Of a DNA stretch of 46,350 bases, positions 3,501-46,350 are shown one piece after another. The notes beneath the pieces are model-generated. The model saw only the letters and a program-made list of their open reading frames with translations, was not told the DNA's origin and ran no database searches. Position numbers and translations under genes: made by a program. Source of the DNA: Bacteroidetes bacterium GWF2_35_48 (GTDB lineage Bacteria > Bacteroidota > Bacteroidia > Bacteroidales > GWF2-35-48); contig MEOG01000019.1 of NCBI GenBank assembly GCA_001769125.1, positions 1 through 46,350 of the forward strand, given 5' to 3'. Each line of letters starts with the position of its first letter. Within the stretch, counting starts at the first letter, position 1.

Positions 3501-6500
3501 TCATTAAGATTTTGTTTTTTCTTAATAATAATGTAGGCTAATGAATCGGCTTCAACTTCTTCTTTTTTCCCTTCTGCTATCAGGATTGAATATTTATCGT
3601 CTTTTAATAGTTCTTTTTTTGTTTCATTTACGATTTTATTTTCTGTTGAAACTTCTTTTTTTATTTCTGTATCATTTTTTACTTCTGTAGATTTTTTTTC
3701 TGTTTGTTTGTTCTCTGCTACAATATCTTTATTTTCTGTAGTTGTGTTATTCGGGTTATTTGATGCAAGAAGATCTTTCCCGTATTCATCTGCTTCAGTA
3801 AATTTTCTTACAGCAAATTCGTTTTTAAATTTTGCAATAGATTCGATGTTGGCAATTTTGTCCTGTTCTGCCTGTTTTTCCTGAACATTTTTTATAGCAG
3901 GAAGCTTTTTCTTCATGTTTTCTGCAAGTGTATAGAGAGAGTCTGAAACATGATTTGCTTTTTGGGCTTCTATTGCCAGTTTTGTGAATTTCTCGTCTGT
4001 TTTTAATGCTTCTTGTTCTTTTTCAGATAATGTTCCTTTGTAAACAGGAGTTATATTTTTTTGAGTTTTATCATCCGTCTTTTTTGTATCAGCAATATTT
4101 TTCTTGGCCTCTTTGTTTTCAGTTATTTTATTATCTGTAGTCTTGTTGTCCTTGTTGTCAGCAAGATTCTTTTTTTCTTCTGTTTTTTGCTTGTCTGTTT
4201 TTTCCTTATCAGCATTTTGTTTTTCGTTTATTTTCTTTGTCATTGCTTCTTTGATTTCAGCAATGTCTTTTTCTGTTACATTTCCTTTTTCGGTAAGATC
4301 AGTAGTTCCGTCTTTTGTTTTTTTAACTTCGTTATCTTTTGTAATTTTTTCATCTTCTTTTTTATTATTAGCTTCTGCTAACAGAGCAGGATTTGATTCG
4401 AGGGTTGCTTTTCCGTATTCATTGGCTTCATTTATTTTTTTAACAGCATACTCTTTTTTGAATTTCGCGATGGATTCGATGTTTGTTATCTGGTCTTGCT
4501 CCGCTTGTTTTTCCTGTGCATTTTTTATTTTATCAAGATTTTTCTTTTTCGTTTTGGCTAATGCAAAGAGAGAATCAGATATGTGATTATTTTTATTGCT
4601 TTCTGTTATTAATTTTGTGAATTTAGTATCTTTTGCAAGTGCTTTTTTTTCTGTTTCAGTTAAGTTAACAGAAGCCGTTGATTTTTCAGTAACCGTATTG
4701 TCTGCAGTTTTGTTATCAGTTTGGAATTTATTTTTATCTTTAATATCAGGATTGTTATTTTCAGAATTATCAGATTCTTTCTTTATTGTATCATCTTTTT
4801 TAATTTCTGATGTTTTGTTATCGGCAAGCTTGCTGTCTTCTTTTGCTTTTGTTTCTGCAAGGTATTGAGTGCCCACATCGTTTGCCTGTTTGAATTTCGC
4901 TTCTGCTTCCTCCTGATTTTTCTTAACCGATTTTTCGAGGACAGCAATCAGTTCTTCGGCTTTTTGTTTGTCTTTCTTTTTCTCAATTGTTTTTAAATCT
5001 TTTTTTAATTCTTCTGCAACATTCGATAAAGAGTCGGCGCGTGTTTCTGCTTTTTTCGCTTCAGAGATCAGTGAAGTATAGCTTGTATTTTGTTCAAGAA
5101 TTACTTTGTCTTTTTCAATCTGTTCGTTCTGTTTTTTCAGTTCGGAATCATCTTTCTTATTTTCTGTTGTTTTATTTTCGGCGATATTGTTTTCTTTCTT
5201 TATTGTATCATCTTTTTTGATTTCTGATGTTTTGTTATCTGATAAATTGTCGTCTTTTTTAATTTCATTCGTTTTATTATCGGCAAGTTTGTTGTCTTCT
5301 TTTGCTTTTGTTTCTGCAAGGTATTGAGTGCCCACATCGTTTGCCTGTTTGAATTTCGCTTCTGCTTCCTCCTGATTTTTCTTAACAGATTTTTCGAGAA
5401 CAGCAATCAGTTCTTCGGCTTTTTGTTTGTCTTTCTTTTTCTCAATTGTTTTTAAATCTTTTTTTAATTCTTCTGCAACATTCGATAAAGAGTCGGCGCG
5501 TGTTTCTGCTTTTTTCGCTTCAGAGATCAGTGAAGTATAGCTTGTATTTTGTTCAAGAATTACTTTGTCTTTTTCAATCTGTTCGTTCTGTTTTTTCAGT
5601 TCGGGATTGTCTTGTTTACTATCTGTTGTTTTATTCTCTGCTATATTGTTTTCTTTTTTTATTGTATCATCTTTTATTTTTTCTGTATTATTTTCAGACA
5701 AATTCTCTTTTTGTTCTTTTTGAACGGATGCAAAATACTCCTGTTCGGTCTCTTTAAGTCTGGCTGTTTTCTTTAACGCATCCTGTTTTTTAAAAACTGC
5801 AATGTTTTCGAGATTATTTATTTTTTCTTCTTCTGCTTGTTTTTTCTTTGGGTCTTTTATTTTTGCCAAAGCTTTTTTCTTATTATCGGCAAGTAGAAAA
5901 AGAGAGTCTGCTATTTCGTGTGATCTGAAAATATCTTTTTTAAGTTCTTTGTATTCTTTATTTGATTTTTCCAGCGTGTTTTGTTCTTTCGATACCAGTG
6001 TACTGACAAAAGTAACGGCTTTCATTTCATTTACCAATGCAGGGTCAGACACTTCTTTCTTTACATTTTTATCAGTTTCTGTTGTTTTTGTTTCTTTGAT
6101 ATCTTTAGCTTCAGTATCATCTTTTTTATTTGCGTCATTTATGTTTTCTGTTGTATTTAAATTTGTTTGTTCCGTTTTATTTTCTGCAAAAATATCAACA
6201 GATTTTCCATTAGAAATCAAGAAAGATTTTTCATGCTGATTTACATCTACAAATCTTTTTTCAGCCAGTTCACGTTTGAAATTGGCAATATTTTCCATGT
6301 TTGATATTTTTTCCTGTTCAGCCTGTTTATCTGCAGGATTTTTAATTTTATCAAGATTTGTTTTTTTCGTGCTGATTTCTTTTGTCAGAGAGTCTGCCAT
6401 TGATAGAGCTTTATTAGCTTCATTCAGCACTTTATTATATGCAGGGTTGTCGTTGCGGAGTTGCTTCTGTTCTTTTTCTGCTAAAACACTTTTCATCACG

Positions 6501-9249: not shown

Positions 9250-9775
9250 AAATATAATAGATGTTCAATAGTGCAACGATAGATGTTCGATAGTGCAACG
9301 ATAGATGTTCGATAGATGTTCGATAGATGTTCGGTAGATGTTCGGTAGATGTTCGATAGATGTTCGATAGATGTTCGGTAGATGTTCGGTAGATGTTCGG
9401 TAGATGTTCGGTAGATGTTCGATAGATGTTCGGTAGATGTTCGATAGATGTTCGATAGATGTTCGATAGATGTTCGATAGGTGTTCGATAGGTGTTCGAT
9501 AGGTGTTCGATAGGTGTTCGATAGTGCAACGATAGATGTTCGATAGGTGTTCGGTAGATGTTCGATAGATGTTCGATAGATGTTCGATAGATGTTCGATA
9601 GATGTTCGATAGGTGTTCGATAGGTGTTCGATAGGTGTTCGATAGGTGTTCGATAGGTGTTCGATAGGTGTTCGATAGGTGTTCGATAGGTGTTCGATAG
9701 GTGTTCGATAGGTGTTCGATAGGTGTTCGATAGGTGTTCGATAGTGCAACGATAGATGTTCGGTAGATGTTCGAT
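9250..9775. repeat. 11-bp tandem repeat array (GATAGRTGTTC)
   Basis: This fills most of the 870-bp gap between the divergent giant gene and bcp. The unit is GATAGATGTTC, with GATAGGTGTTC and GGTAGATGTTC variants in runs, repeated several dozen times. It is interrupted four times by a GATAGTGCAAC variant. Because 11 is not a multiple of 3, the minus strand is open in all frames and each frame reads the same 11-residue peptide (EHLSNTYRTPI). This produces long spurious reading frames. I see no start signal or conserved domain that would make it a gene. Confidence 0.9.
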
Positions 9776-9851
9776 TGTATTCCTACCGTATTTCTACCGA
9801 ATTTCTATTGAATTCCTATTGTATTCCTATTGTATTCCTATTGTATTCCTT
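9776..9851. repeat. Diverged 11-bp repeats (TATTGTATTCC)
   Basis: About seven units such as GATTGTATTCC, TACCGTATTTC, TATTGAATTCC and TATTGTATTCC continue directly from the array to the left with the same 11-bp period and a recognisable resemblance. The rest of the gap up to bcp (9852-9952) is AT-rich and I see nothing definite in it. Confidence 0.7.
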
Positions 9852-41178: not shown

Positions 41179-43809
41179 TTATTTCAAAATCATAAACTTC
41201 TTTGTAACTTTCTTATTGCCATTGCTGACATTTACAAAATAAAATCCATTATCAAAGTTACTCAAATCTGCTTGCAGCAAATCATTTGAAACGGTTGACC
41301 ATATCTTTGAATAAACTACAGCTCCTACTGCATTACAAATTTCAACTTTTACTTCCGGAGATTCAATTTCGCCTAAAGAAATATTGATAATACCAGCAGA
41401 AGGTATTGGAAATACGCTGATATTTTCTTTCGTTGCTATTTTCTCTTGAAGACCGGTCATTAAAGAAATATCCCATTTGTAAATTCCACCCACTGTAGAA
41501 CTTTCATTAAAGCCGCCTGCCCAGCCTGTATTGATATCATAAAACATAACATCGGTATACATCACAGAGCCGGTATCAATGTTATTAAATGATGCTCCAT
41601 CATCTGTACTGAAAGATGAACCCTTGCCCGGGTAGCTTGCAACATTTACCCATGTGGATGCTGTTCCCGGAACAAAAATAAGCTTTGCCGAAGAAACTAA
41701 ATATCCGGTAGGTGTTACTGTTGTCCACGTTGTTCCTCCATTAATTGTTTTTTTAATAGTATAAGGAGCTGCGCTCAAAACAGCAAATCCAACATTTGCA
41801 TCTTTAAAAGTCATAGTAAATACATCTGTAAATCCTGTTGTTGCAACAGTCCATGTTGCTCCTTTGTTGGTTGATTTATAAACCCTTCCCATATTCGAAG
41901 TGAACCAAACCGTGTTGCCAACAGCCTGATATAAATTTGTAATACCACATTCATCTGTTTGAGCATTGGGTATATTTGCCCCTGCAACTTGTGTCCATGT
42001 TGTACCGCCATTGCTTGTTGTATAAATACAGAACTCACTGTTTACAGGGTCGCCCATTGCAAATCCATCTGTAGCATTAAAAAAATGCACCACATTAGCC
42101 CAGCTATCGGTAAATGTTGCTGTTGTCTGTTCCTGCCAAGTAGAACCGCCATTTGTTGTTTTAATTATTTTTCCACCTGTACCAGAAATAGGAAACATGC
42201 ATGCATAAGCCGTATTGTAATCTACAGCGAAAATATTGGAAACGCCAAAATTTGCAGAATTTGTAAAAGATATTGTTCCGGGTGTCCAGGTGCTTCCACC
42301 ATCATTTGTTCTTGTAAATTCACGAATATAAGCAGAGGGATTTGTTCCGTCATAAGCTTTTGCCCACACGGTGTTCTGATCAACAATAAAAATCTGGTCA
42401 ATACCTCTGGATGCGCTCATAAATGAAGTATTCTGACGAATCCATGCTGAAGGAACTCCTCCAACATTAATGTATTGCTCACGTGTTTTTATATCATTAC
42501 CATTTGCATTTGTTACTTTCAGGCTTATGATATGAAAACCATTTGTAGAAAAAGTAACAGTACCCGGATTTTGAGAAGTAGAAGTAGCAGGTGTTCCTCC
42601 CTCAAATGTCCATAACCATGAAGTAGGATTGTTTAATGAATTATCTATAAAAACAACTTCTTCTCCGATTGCCGGAACCATTGTATTTGCTGTAAAATTT
42701 GCAATAGGAGCATTGCTTAATGGCTGAATTCTGATAACAGCTGTGTTGTTAGAACTAAAATTACTACCCGATGGGTTCAGGGATGTTAAATAAAAATAGC
42801 CATCTGAAGAGCCTCCCCAGCCCCAATTAATATGAACTTGATTCGCAGCACTATAGCCATCGCAAACAAAAGCATGACCTGCAGTCGCATTATCGTCGCC
42901 AGCCAAATAAATAGGTCTGCCGGCATCCAGTTCTGCTTTTATTAAATTCATCCAGGTAGTATTATTAAAAGATGCTTTATACTTACATTCCGCTGTAGGC
43001 TGATATCTGAAATAATTTATCAGAGCAGTTGGCACATCCTGTGAATAAGCGCCGGAACCATTGGAGTCATAATTCATCTCTACAGAAACCCCTGCATGAA
43101 ACATTAAAGTAGCAAGTGCTGTGTTCGATGTGTATGCGCTGTTAGGCATTGATGCCCAATTATAAGTGGTAGCACCAAAATTGGCAGTTAATGTTCCATA
43201 TTCAGGATGTGTGGTAGGAACATAAGAATGAGAGCCATTTCCTGTAGTTGGATATGCCCATTTTTTCATTATCTGCGCCATGGAAGTTGCAACACAACCT
43301 GTGGGATCTGAACCCGGACACAATGCGTTATAAGGATAACCCTGATCCCAGGTGGTAGAACACAAGGGATTTACAGCAGCTATATCTTTAGCAAAAACTT
43401 CGTGTTTTATTTCATTCCACGATTTTAATGTTTCTGTATTATCAAGACCTGCATCAACAATATTTTTTATTTCCCTGCTGTATGCCTGATAAAAAGCCAA
43501 AGCATTCGGAGGAATATTATTTTTATCAAAATTTGATTCGACAGAATACCCAATTACAGGTTCAGATGCATCATCAGCAGCAATCATCACAAAACCTCCG
43601 GCATTAAAAACAAAAGTGTAGTAAGTAAGCATTCCATTATAAGTCGTTGGGATGACTTCTTTAACAGAAAAATCGGATGTATGCGATGCCGCACAATGGG
43701 AATACCACTTAATGGCAATGCTCTGCGCATACTCAGTAGTAACAGGCTTTCCAAAAAGAAAAATGCTGACAAAAATAAATGTCAGAAAGAGTAAAAATTT
43801 CTGTACCAT
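41179..43809 (-). CDS. C10 (streptopain-like) cysteine protease with PKD, YCF48 repeats and T9SS sorting domain
   Basis: An 876-residue secreted protease. A signal peptide (1-20) precedes a streptopain-type inhibitory propeptide (about 22-120, TTEYAQSIAIKWYSHCA) and a C10 peptidase domain (about 140-365). C172 (PTGCVATSMAQIMKKW) and H312 (TAGHAFVCDGY) are the catalytic pair, and INWGWGGSSDGYF is the usual following motif. A PKD domain (about 370-450, TSWLWTFEGGTP) is followed by YCF48/BNR-like repeats (about 460-790, KTTNGGSTW) and a T9SS sorting domain (FPIPSAGIINISL ... NGFYFVNVS). It is expected to mature by propeptide removal. The YCF48 module is shared with neighbours at 30846, 44343 and 45614. 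Confidence 0.88.
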   Translation of the reverse strand: MVQKFLLFLTFIFVSIFLFGKPVTTEYAQSIAIKWYSHCAASHTSDFSVKEVIPTTYNGMLTYYTFVFNAGGFVMIAADDASEPVIGYSVESNFDKNNIPPNALAFYQAYSREIKNIVDAGLDNTETLKSWNEIKHEVFAKDIAAVNPLCSTTWDQGYPYNALCPGSDPTGCVATSMAQIMKKWAYPTTGNGSHSYVPTTHPEYGTLTANFGATTYNWASMPNSAYTSNTALATLMFHAGVSVEMNYDSNGSGAYSQDVPTALINYFRYQPTAECKYKASFNNTTWMNLIKAELDAGRPIYLAGDDNATAGHAFVCDGYSAANQVHINWGWGGSSDGYFYLTSLNPSGSNFSSNNTAVIRIQPLSNAPIANFTANTMVPAIGEEVVFIDNSLNNPTSWLWTFEGGTPATSTSQNPGTVTFSTNGFHIISLKVTNANGNDIKTREQYINVGGVPSAWIRQNTSFMSASRGIDQIFIVDQNTVWAKAYDGTNPSAYIREFTRTNDGGSTWTPGTISFTNSANFGVSNIFAVDYNTAYACMFPISGTGGKIIKTTNGGSTWQEQTTATFTDSWANVVHFFNATDGFAMGDPVNSEFCIYTTSNGGTTWTQVAGANIPNAQTDECGITNLYQAVGNTVWFTSNMGRVYKSTNKGATWTVATTGFTDVFTMTFKDANVGFAVLSAAPYTIKKTINGGTTWTTVTPTGYLVSSAKLIFVPGTASTWVNVASYPGKGSSFSTDDGASFNNIDTGSVMYTDVMFYDINTGWAGGFNESSTVGGIYKWDISLMTGLQEKIATKENISVFPIPSAGIINISLGEIESPEVKVEICNAVGAVVYSKIWSTVSNDLLQADLSNFDNGFYFVNVSNGNKKVTKKFMILK

Positions 43810-43851: not shown

Positions 43852-43920
43852 AAAAAGAAATGGAAACAAAAAATTTTATGAAGATTTATTTTAACGGCTG
43901 TAATAAAAATACCGTAAAAC

Positions 43921-44290
43921 CCCCTCGTTCGCGCTCGTCTTAGCGCAGGCAAAAAGGTAGGCGAACGAGTGCAGAAATAGTACCTAAAGCGTGGAACATC
44001 TTGATAGCCACCCATGCAACCTTTTCAAAAAAAAATCGTAATAAAATTTGTTGAATTGAAATTTTACCCAAACCAAAGGTAGAAAATAGTGAAAACGATG
44101 CTTTTTTACAAATTTCAATACGTGACATGCAAGGTAATTCCTCTCGTTCACGCTCGTTTCAGCGCAGGCAAAAAGGCAGGCGGACGAGTGCAGGAATAGA
44201 GCTATTGTTTTTGAAAATAAAATTAGGTACAACAAACGCACTCGTCCCATCCCCGCGATGCTTTACACAAAGACGAGCGCGAACGAGGGG
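43921..44290. repeat. Element bounded by 19-bp perfect inverted repeats
   Basis: This makes up most of the 533-bp gap 43810-44342. The ends CCCCTCGTTCGCGCTCGTC (43921-43939) and 44272-44290 are exact inverted repeats. Inside are two similar hairpin copies (43924-43969 with CTCGTTCGC/GCGAACGAG; 44143-44188, partly mismatched), both with AGCGCAGGCAAAAAGG in the loop, and a third stem CTCGTC/GACGAG at 44241-44277. No transposase frame is seen. The right end touches the duplicated gene tail that starts at 44291. Confidence 0.7.
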
Positions 44291-44342
44291 TTTTCAATGA
44301 AAAATTTGTTTTTAATAACAGAATAATAAAACAATAGATAAA
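44291..44342 (+). pseudogene. Relic of the 3' end of a lost YCF48-like gene copy
   Basis: This stretch is identical to the 3' end and spacer of the downstream gene (45562-45613) and encodes its last residues FNEKFVFNNRIIKQ followed by the stop. The identity continues into the start of the next gene, giving a 73-bp exact direct repeat (44291-44363 and 45562-45634). It is best read as the tail of a third paralogue, the rest of which is gone. Confidence 0.7.
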
Positions 44343-45608
44343 ATGAAAAAATACATTATTTTGCTAATAATACTCATTCATATATACCCAATTATTTCAA
44401 CCAGTAATAATCTTAATAGTTTAACAATGTCTTATGGCTGGGATACTGTATATATCTTTTCAAATAATTCAGGTTTGGTTGTAATAGATTTTCTTTCTGC
44501 AAATGTAGGTTACGTAAGCAGAGGCAGGCATTTAATAAAAACTACGAATAGTGGTAATGATTGGAATTTATTTAACTATGCCAATACAACTATAGCAAAC
44601 ATAATTTCATTAAGTTTTATAAATGACTCTACAGGTTTTTGCACTACTTATGCTTATGGAAATCCGTTTCGTTGTTATAAAACAATTGATGGGGGCTTGA
44701 ATTGGAACGAATTGCATATTTCAGATACAATAAACACTATTAATAAAGTTTATTTTGTTGATTCACTAAATGGTTATGTAATATATAGTGGTTATTATGT
44801 TTTTAAAACAAACGATGGAGGAAATACATGGGCATTGGATAATAATCTGACATATAACTATAGTTTTAAAGTCGATATTAAATTTGTTGACAATAACGTT
44901 GGTTATATTACTAATTATAAATCTGTATATAAAACAATTGATGCTGGTTTAACCTGGTCGGCAACTACAATTGATACAAATGGCTATAAATTATTATCTG
45001 TTGTTGACCAGAACACAGTTTATATCGGAGGTGAATATGGAACTCTATTTAAAACTACAAATGGCGGTATAACATGGAGTAACATTAGTTTTGAATATAC
45101 CTATGTACCTAATTTAGATATTGTTTCTATTTGTGCTATAAACAAAGATATCGTATATGTATCTATTGATCCTTATTTATCAAGTAATTCTCCAAAAATA
45201 CTTAAAACCACTGATGGTGGCTTATCTTGGGATGTTGTATATATTTCAGATTATTCTTCTCCAACAAATTTATTTTTTTTAAATGAAAATTTAGGGTTTT
45301 GTTATGTTAGTAAATACATTTTAAGATACACAGGTTCTTCAGGCATTGAGCAAAATAATTCTGAAAAAATAAATGTTTCAATTTCTCCCAACCCAACTTC
45401 CGATAAACTTTATGTTGAATTTAATACAGAAATAAATAACCCTTTTCAAATTCAATTAATTGAAATTGCAAGTGGTAAAGTAATATTACAAGAAACTGGC
45501 AATACTCAAAATTTTAGAATTAATATGGAAAAATTGCCATCCTCTGTTTATATTTTACGAATTTTCAATGAAAAATTTGTTTTTAATAACAGAATAATAA
45601 AACAATAG
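44343..45608 (+). CDS. YCF48-like repeat protein with T9SS sorting domain
   Basis: A 421-residue secreted protein. A signal peptide (MKKYIILLIILIHIYPIIS) is followed by six or so YCF48/BNR-like propeller blades (KTTNSGNDWN, KTIDGGLNW, KTNDGGNTW, KTIDAGLTW, KTTNGGITW, KTTDGGLSW) and a T9SS type A sorting domain (ISPNPTSDKLYVEFN ... SSVYILRIFN). There is no catalytic domain. YCF48 itself is a photosystem II assembly factor, but in Bacteroidota this repeat is a generic secreted propeller. The next gene is a close paralogue 5 bp downstream, and the pair probably forms one transcript. Confidence 0.8.
   Translation: MKKYIILLIILIHIYPIISTSNNLNSLTMSYGWDTVYIFSNNSGLVVIDFLSANVGYVSRGRHLIKTTNSGNDWNLFNYANTTIANIISLSFINDSTGFCTTYAYGNPFRCYKTIDGGLNWNELHISDTINTINKVYFVDSLNGYVIYSGYYVFKTNDGGNTWALDNNLTYNYSFKVDIKFVDNNVGYITNYKSVYKTIDAGLTWSATTIDTNGYKLLSVVDQNTVYIGGEYGTLFKTTNGGITWSNISFEYTYVPNLDIVSICAINKDIVYVSIDPYLSSNSPKILKTTDGGLSWDVVYISDYSSPTNLFFLNENLGFCYVSKYILRYTGSSGIEQNNSEKINVSISPNPTSDKLYVEFNTEINNPFQIQLIEIASGKVILQETGNTQNFRINMEKLPSSVYILRIFNEKFVFNNRIIKQ
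44582..44764 (+). repeat. Near-identical patch shared with the downstream paralogue
   Basis: These 183 bp match 45847-46029 with four substitutions, while sequences on both sides within the two genes are strongly diverged. It encodes NTTIANIISLSFINDSTGFC and the following blade. Confidence 0.85.
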
Positions 45609-45634
45609 ATAAAATGAAAAAATACATTATTTTG
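45562..45634 (+). repeat. 73-bp direct repeat, second copy
   Basis: Identical to 44291-44363 at an offset of 1271 bp. It spans the 3' end of the first YCF48-like gene, the 5-bp spacer and the first codons of the second. Confidence 0.9.
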
Positions 45635-46270
45635 ATTGTACCTTTCATTACTTTATTCTCATTGTTATCATATAGTAACAATATTTTTAATTTTACTATT
45701 TCTTATGGTTGGGATACTGTTTATGAATTACCTGGCAACAGTTCATTTGTTTACTTAAGTTTTCCTACAGAAAATACTGGCTATGTCAGCATGGGTAGAA
45801 AAATGGCAAAAACTACTAATAGAGGAGATGATTGGCTTTTATATGACAATACAACTATAGCAAACATAATTTCATTAAGTTTTATAAATGACTCTACTGG
45901 TTTTTGCATTACTTATGCTTATGGAAATCCGTTTCGTTGTTATAAAACAATTGATGGGGGCTTGAATTGGAACGAATTGCATATTTCAGATACAATAAAC
46001 ACTTTTCATAAAGTTTATTTTGTTGATTCTTTTTATGGTTATATTCTTTCAAGTGGTTCTGTGTTTAAATCTAGCGATGGTGGTAGTACTTGGGCAAAGG
46101 ATCAAAATCCTGTACTTTTAAGTGGTTTTAAAAATGATATTCAATTTGCAAATCAAGTTGTTGGTTATATTAATGGTACATTGGAAATTTACAGAACAAT
46201 AGATCAATGTGAAACATGGTCAAAGTTATCGTTTGTTCCATTATTTATTGATAATTATACCGGATTTTAA
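45614..46270 (+). CDS. Truncated YCF48-like paralogue lacking the sorting domain
   Basis: A 218-residue protein with a signal peptide (MKKYIILIVPFITLFSLLS) and about three to four YCF48-like blades, aligned to the first half of the upstream 421-residue gene. It stops after RTIDQCETWSKLSFVPLF...TGF, so it lacks the remaining blades and the T9SS sorting domain. It is either a degenerate copy or a protein left in the periplasm. None of the three frames in the last 80 bp of the window restores similarity, so a simple frameshift is not visible. It lies 5 bp after its paralogue and shares with it a 183-bp near-identical patch. Confidence 0.65.
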   Translation: MKKYIILIVPFITLFSLLSYSNNIFNFTISYGWDTVYELPGNSSFVYLSFPTENTGYVSMGRKMAKTTNRGDDWLLYDNTTIANIISLSFINDSTGFCITYAYGNPFRCYKTIDGGLNWNELHISDTINTFHKVYFVDSFYGYILSSGSVFKSSDGGSTWAKDQNPVLLSGFKNDIQFANQVVGYINGTLEIYRTIDQCETWSKLSFVPLFIDNYTGF

Positions 46271-46350
46271 ATCAAAAATCTTAGTATTATCAATACATAC
46301 AGTAGAAATAATTCAAAAATGTAGCAAACAGATATTGTTAATAAAAAGTT

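Follow-up and report, generated by a model that had tools for sequence, protein, structure and literature searches.

A near-identical, blade-sized tract in two diverged tandem YCF48-like propeller genes points to gene conversion

A small array of YCF48-like genes at a contig end

The window (the whole 46,350-nucleotide stretch of DNA analysed here) is the entire contig C19, one of 142 in a draft genome of 5.98 Mb. Near the right end of this contig lie two neighbouring genes, gene 1 and the start of gene 2, which belong to an array that starts with a tail remnant, continues with gene 1 and the insertion-bearing gene 2, and closes with a head remnant. The array has the following features, given in window coordinates unless another contig is named.

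44291–44363, plus strand: junction repeat R0, made up of the tail of a preceding, now lost copy (44291–44337), a 5-bp spacer and the first 21 nt of gene 1
44343–45608, plus strand: gene 1, intact, 421 aa, a YCF48-like propeller with a C-terminal type IX sorting domain (open reading frame, Pfam profiles, Foldseek)
44582–44764, plus strand: near-identical patch in gene 1, predicted to span blade 2 and the strand that opens blade 3 (residues ~79–141, with the edge taken at 44577)
45562–45634, plus strand: junction repeat R1, the gene 1 tail and the gene 2 start, an exact 73-bp copy of R0
45614–46260, plus strand: 5′ part of gene 2, up to the point where an insertion sequence breaks the gene; the listed open reading frame continues into the insertion sequence, to 46270
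45847–46029, plus strand: near-identical patch in gene 2, the partner of 44582–44764
46255–46260, plus strand: TTATAC, left copy of a 6-bp target duplication
46261–46350: multicopy insertion sequence, left end (inverted ends CGGATTTTA), inside which the contig stops after 90 bases
contig C42, ~29232 down to ~28602, minus strand: 3′ part of gene 2, in the same frame as the 5′ part once joined

Profile searches matched PF14870 (PSII_BNR; cut-off 27) to gene 1 with 61.9 bits and to the 5′ part of gene 2 with 30.4 bits, and gave no PF14870 match for the 3′ part of gene 2 alone. The C-terminal PF18962 domain (Por_Secre_tail; cut-off 27) was found in gene 1 (34.4 bits) and in the 3′ part of gene 2 on C42 (37.7 bits). 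We built a structural model of the gene 1 product from a three-sequence alignment; it is of modest confidence (mean pLDDT 63.4, pTM 0.58), and its ten best Foldseek matches were all YCF48 structures, with E values from 9e-12 to 3e-10. A sequence search of the PDB returned six distinct sequences, all of them YCF48 or HCF136. Read by eye, the strand groups of this modest-confidence model suggest seven blades followed by a C-terminal domain. These matches place both genes in the YCF48-like, Asp-box beta-propeller fold family, and our claim is one of family membership only, not of a role in photosystem II assembly. The N terminus of gene 1, read by eye, is lysine-rich and then hydrophobic. The propeller protein is probably exported, and the sorting tail suggests that it is displayed at the cell surface.

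An insertion sequence splits gene 2 between two contigs

The insertion sequence that interrupts gene 2 is known from its outer 64–95 bases alone. Seven left and seven right ends of it are present in the genome, and all 14 lie at contig ends. To pair left with right ends, we read the flanking bases of each end for 6-bp target duplications, and found the A+T-rich sequences TTATAC, TTATAA, ATATAA, TTATTA, ATACAC and TTAAAA. TTATAA is common to two left and two right ends, and the pairing among these is ambiguous. Among the seven right ends, the right copy of TTATAC occurs at C42 only, and the window end therefore pairs with C42. Joining C19 and C42 at a single copy of TTATAC turned gene 2 into one open frame of 423 aa, which aligns with gene 1 end to end. 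At present, a full-length protein from the pair is possible only from gene 1, gene 2 being interrupted. Separately, the end of the insertion sequence on contig C78 adjoins further YCF48-like open reading frames.

Further copies downstream, with which the earlier note on this DNA had proposed to extend the comparison, do exist, but on C42, where they consist of the rest of gene 2 and the 5′ remnant of a third copy. Beyond this head of gene 3, C42 continues with sequence that is unique in the genome and next with a DivIC-type open reading frame (PF04977, 29.0 bits, cut-off 28.9).

A near-identical patch lies between diverged flanks

The earlier note had claimed that 183 bp of the two genes match with four substitutions while the adjoining parts are strongly diverged. 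In the alignment of gene 1 with gene 2 its coordinates proved exact: 44582–44764 and 45847–46029 differ at 4 of 183 bases, and the flanks are 47–73% identical. The sliding-window comparison along both genes that it had proposed gave the same picture, with identities in 60-base windows of 0.97–1.00 inside the patch, 0.52–0.73 to its left (44343–44582), 0.47–0.70 to its right (44763–45302) and 0.80–0.91 where a window straddles a patch edge; identity climbs again toward the gene ends. At a mismatch penalty of 10, the best-scoring segment was 44582–44764 with 4 mismatches, and it widened to 44567–44764 with 5 mismatches at a penalty of 5 and to 44537–44764 with 11 mismatches at a penalty of 3. 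None of 5,000 column permutations reached the patch score at any of the three penalties. On our reading of the modest-confidence model, the patch (residues ~79–141) would comprise blade 2 (strands 87–124) and the opening strand of blade 3 (133–138).

Used as a DNA query against the genome, the patch returned its own two copies and otherwise chance-like short matches (the best of 31 bases, 90%, E 1e-4), and a third genomic copy as donor was rejected on this result.

The genome is a draft in 142 contigs and the contig breaks inside the array at a multicopy insertion sequence, a setting in which a shared patch could be an artefact of assembly or of a mixture of strains. We regard this as very improbable: the two patch copies were not collapsed in assembly, because they differ at four positions; neither gene 1 nor the joined gene 2 has its reading frame broken in the patch; and the target duplication gives the window's insertion-sequence end just one partner.

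Synonymous sites separate copying from selection on the protein

Next, we compared gene 1 with the complete joined gene 2 at synonymous sites, using Nei–Gojobori counts. In the patch (44577–44766), dS was 0.053, with 2 of 39 synonymous sites differing, against 0.846 to its left (44343–44567) and 1.691 to its right (44767–45193). Farther downstream, dS was 0.593 over 45194–45510 and 0.06 over the last 93 bases. A second count was restricted to aligned codons at which the two genes agree in a degenerate amino acid. The identical ones among these made up 24/37 before the patch, 56/58 within it, 35/56 after it, 24/30 and 30/38 in the next two segments and 29/30 in the tail; the patch thus exceeds the rest without the tail (113/161) with a one-sided Fisher p of 6e-6. 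A scan along these same-amino-acid codons located the best tract at 44559–44762, with one difference in 59 codons, a score that was reached in 8 of 10,000 permutations at a penalty of 6 and in 0 of 10,000 at a penalty of 10. At the lenient penalty of 3, the scan fused the patch with the tail and was not significant (1,919 of 10,000 permutations).

High identity of the encoded protein, 59 of 63 patch residues between gene 1 and gene 2, is what would be expected if purifying selection on a critical blade had kept the patch alike, and the earlier note had named strong conservation of the patch in distant homologues as the finding that would overturn its reading. Selection at the protein level fails as a cause because synonymous sites are near-identical in the patch and diverged in its flanks. 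As a control, we took the C-terminal stretch 45348–45512, which is moderately conserved between the two genes (38 of 55 residues alike, below the patch) and in which only 30 of 38 same-amino-acid codons are identical, without the synonymous identity of the patch. Last, the two distant homologues that we found carry no extra conservation in the patch. Gene 1 and the homologue in genome G068 agree at 18 of 56 residues in the patch, at 12 of 45 before it and at 55 of 181 after it, and the corresponding counts for the NORP27 homologue (a Flavobacteriales contig, 26% identity) are 14 of 56, 13 of 45 and 48 of 182. Purifying selection on the protein was accordingly rejected as the cause, and we give it hardly any credence; conversion withstood this comparison with the two homologues.

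These homologues came from searches of several collections. In the genome search, 2 of 99 genomes gave a match at E 1e-30, one being the window's own and the other G068, at 31% identity; the same-genus genome G001 gave no match at this threshold. A scan of genome_contigs yielded one locus at 26% identity, viral_contigs gave no match, and plasmids gave 22 records, all below 60% identity. No close strain or species carrying the locus was found among the 99 genomes, genome_contigs, viral_contigs and plasmids. Read by eye, the stretch beside kdsA in G001 holds no such array; the comparison is a weak one, as KdsA is only 69% identical and a search of G001 for a DivIC-like relative found none.

Segments of gene 2 have differing histories

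The earlier note had counted the 73-bp repeat as a second identical patch. The repeat is indeed exact, but it is no patch within the gene body: it is a junction between a gene end and a gene start, formed by the last codons, the stop, a 5-bp spacer and the first 21 bases of the next gene. Its occurrence before gene 1 includes a 47-bp tail of the lost copy. R0 matches the junction on C42 exactly over 67 bp, and R1, at the boundary of genes 1 and 2, matches R2, at the boundary of genes 2 and 3 on C42, exactly over 107 bp (45522–45628). In the head region, genes 2 and 3 differ at 4 of 242 positions (45591–45832), and the head of gene 1 is diverged. Gene 2 is thus a mosaic, with a head like that of gene 3, a blade 2 like that of gene 1, a middle unlike gene 1 and an end like that of gene 1. 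The match between genes 2 and 3 stops at 45832, ~10–15 bp before the left edge of the patch in gene 2 (45842–45847), and this proximity may reflect a shared breakpoint or coincidence. Because the segments of gene 2 have differing histories, the array must have been reshaped several times, by copying or unequal crossing over, by loss at both ends and by insertion.

Such a record raises the question of whether a longer array once existed in which unequal crossing over recurred and copies were lost, leaving genes 1 and 2 as chimeras of several earlier copies. In favour of this, parts are missing from both ends of the present array, where a 47-bp tail precedes gene 1 and a 5′ remnant follows gene 2; its junction repeats are identical, the head of gene 2 matches gene 3, and that match ends at 45832, just short of the patch. 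A single crossover, however, does not leave both surviving genes with an internal patch that diverged sequence borders on each side; two close exchanges would be needed, with the same outcome as conversion. We therefore consider unequal crossing over an unlikely source of the patch, although the most plausible of the alternatives weighed here.

Immediately upstream of the array, an intergenic element at 43917–44294 has inverted ends of 25 bp (CCCCTCGTTCGCGCTCGTCTT..., 24 of 25 alike) and directly adjoins, on its right, the tail remnant that precedes gene 1. It contains an internal 60-bp direct repeat (88%), and matches to portions of it occur at 21 other sites in the genome. It may be a miniature mobile element or a palindromic repeat element, and may have been involved in the loss of the preceding copy.

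Probable gene conversion between tandem propeller paralogues

The earlier note had read the sharp edges between identical and diverged parts as gene conversion, and the contrast at synonymous sites (dS 0.053 against 0.85 and 1.69; Fisher p 6e-6) bears this out. We propose that gene 1 and gene 2 are old paralogues in a small tandem array of genes encoding YCF48-like propellers that end in type IX sorting tails, and that gene conversion between them is the best explanation of the patch; to this reading as a whole we assign a probability of roughly 0.8. The mosaic, the synonymous-site signature, the array structure and the insertion in gene 2 are direct observations, and it is from these that we infer recombination as the mechanism. 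A stretch of ~183–200 bp, encoding blade 2 together with the opening strand of blade 3, would have been copied between gene 1 and gene 2, in either direction, long after the two genes diverged and through homologous recombination without exchange of flanks. The four differences in 183 bp would then date from after the copying. The gene ends (~45514–45628) and the head common to genes 2 and 3 would represent further young shared segments, which other conversion or unequal crossing-over events may have supplied. A double crossover, or a lost third copy that was copied into both genes, would leave an identical pattern.

Ectopic gene conversion between bacterial paralogues has been described for the RF1/RF2 release factor genes (PMC4530459) and for a duplicated PE_PGRS gene pair (PMC1762029). 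As portrayed in those reports, the cases resemble genes 1 and 2 in that part of one paralogue was copied onto another; here, the tract corresponds to one predicted blade and an additional strand, and the genes form a tandem array and carry type IX sorting tails. Blades have been treated as units of propeller evolution in a study of blade amplification (PMC9218822), in whose set the Asp-box group, including PSII-like propellers, makes up to 5% of the highly repetitive propellers; the terms 'gene conversion' and 'recombination' are absent from its main text. The amplification described there takes place within a propeller, whereas genes 1 and 2 have in common a blade-sized tract at the same position in two paralogues. 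Our literature searches found no paper that joins Ycf48-like proteins with gene conversion and none on YCF48 together with type IX secretion in Bacteroidetes. Both gene conversion between paralogues and blades as evolutionary units are already known, and genes 1 and 2 are a new example of a known process.

That conversion could shuffle surface-exposed blades, as the earlier note suggested, is supported only in part. The patch spans about one predicted blade plus a strand and the genes carry a type IX sorting tail, but there is one clear internal tract and gene 2 is interrupted; we raise ongoing shuffling of surface blades as a hypothesis. A stronger form would have gene 1 as the expressed copy and its broken neighbours as silent donors, with blade-by-blade conversion varying the binding face of the propeller. 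The precedent is vlsE of Borrelia, which undergoes segmental conversion from silent cassettes (PMC11499132, PMC9159922) that are reported to be ~90% identical to the target region (PMC11499132). The likeness lies in short tracts copied within a related family, here with an intact gene adjoining broken copies: the array holds one intact gene, one insertion-interrupted copy and two remnants. Unlike in the vlsE system as described in these sources, gene 1 differs strongly from gene 2 over most of its length and one clear tract is seen, and the locus gave no sign of variants, repeated switching or a cassette array; we judge such a donor system improbable.

Genes 1 and 2 offer a clean example of a blade-sized piece that tandem propeller genes have come to hold in common through copying, on the reading of gene conversion. 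Should tracts of this kind prove recurrent, exported propellers could gain new blade combinations through recombination between paralogues, with the fold kept. One tract in one draft genome makes this a modest addition, a clear but ordinary case of bacterial gene conversion.

Other YCF48-like loci and repeats in the genome

The genome, which its type IX sorting tails mark as probably one of Bacteroidota, has many YCF48-like proteins. We compared ten further stretches and C78, on both strands, with the array (C45 is among the loci outside this set), and saw no near-identical internal patch between two YCF48-like genes in these 11 stretches. Weaker resemblances were found. On C141 and C107, ~570 bp directly upstream of YCF48-like open reading frames are alike at 76%. 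Within C107 (L055, G000:C107:1-3500), ~104 bp at 490–593 and 1889–1990 are alike at 78%, first just before and at the start of a YCF48-like open reading frame and again before and at the start of the next one, which has a type IX sorting tail and no PF14870 match. This repeat is somewhat like the junction repeats of genes 1 and 2. C96 and C17 have 356 bp in common at 70%, and the C122 stretch contains a 177-bp tandem repeat (87%), with weaker repeats in C107, C73 and C46.

Elsewhere in the window, the minus strand at 41179–43809 encodes a Peptidase C10 protein that combines a Spi-type inhibitor domain with PKD and YCF48-like repeats and also has a type IX sorting tail. Strong direct repeats form a tandem array of units of ~55 bp at 9257–9778, and 4791–5259 and 5250–5715 are a 469-bp near duplicate (92%) inside an open reading frame of 2,847 aa.
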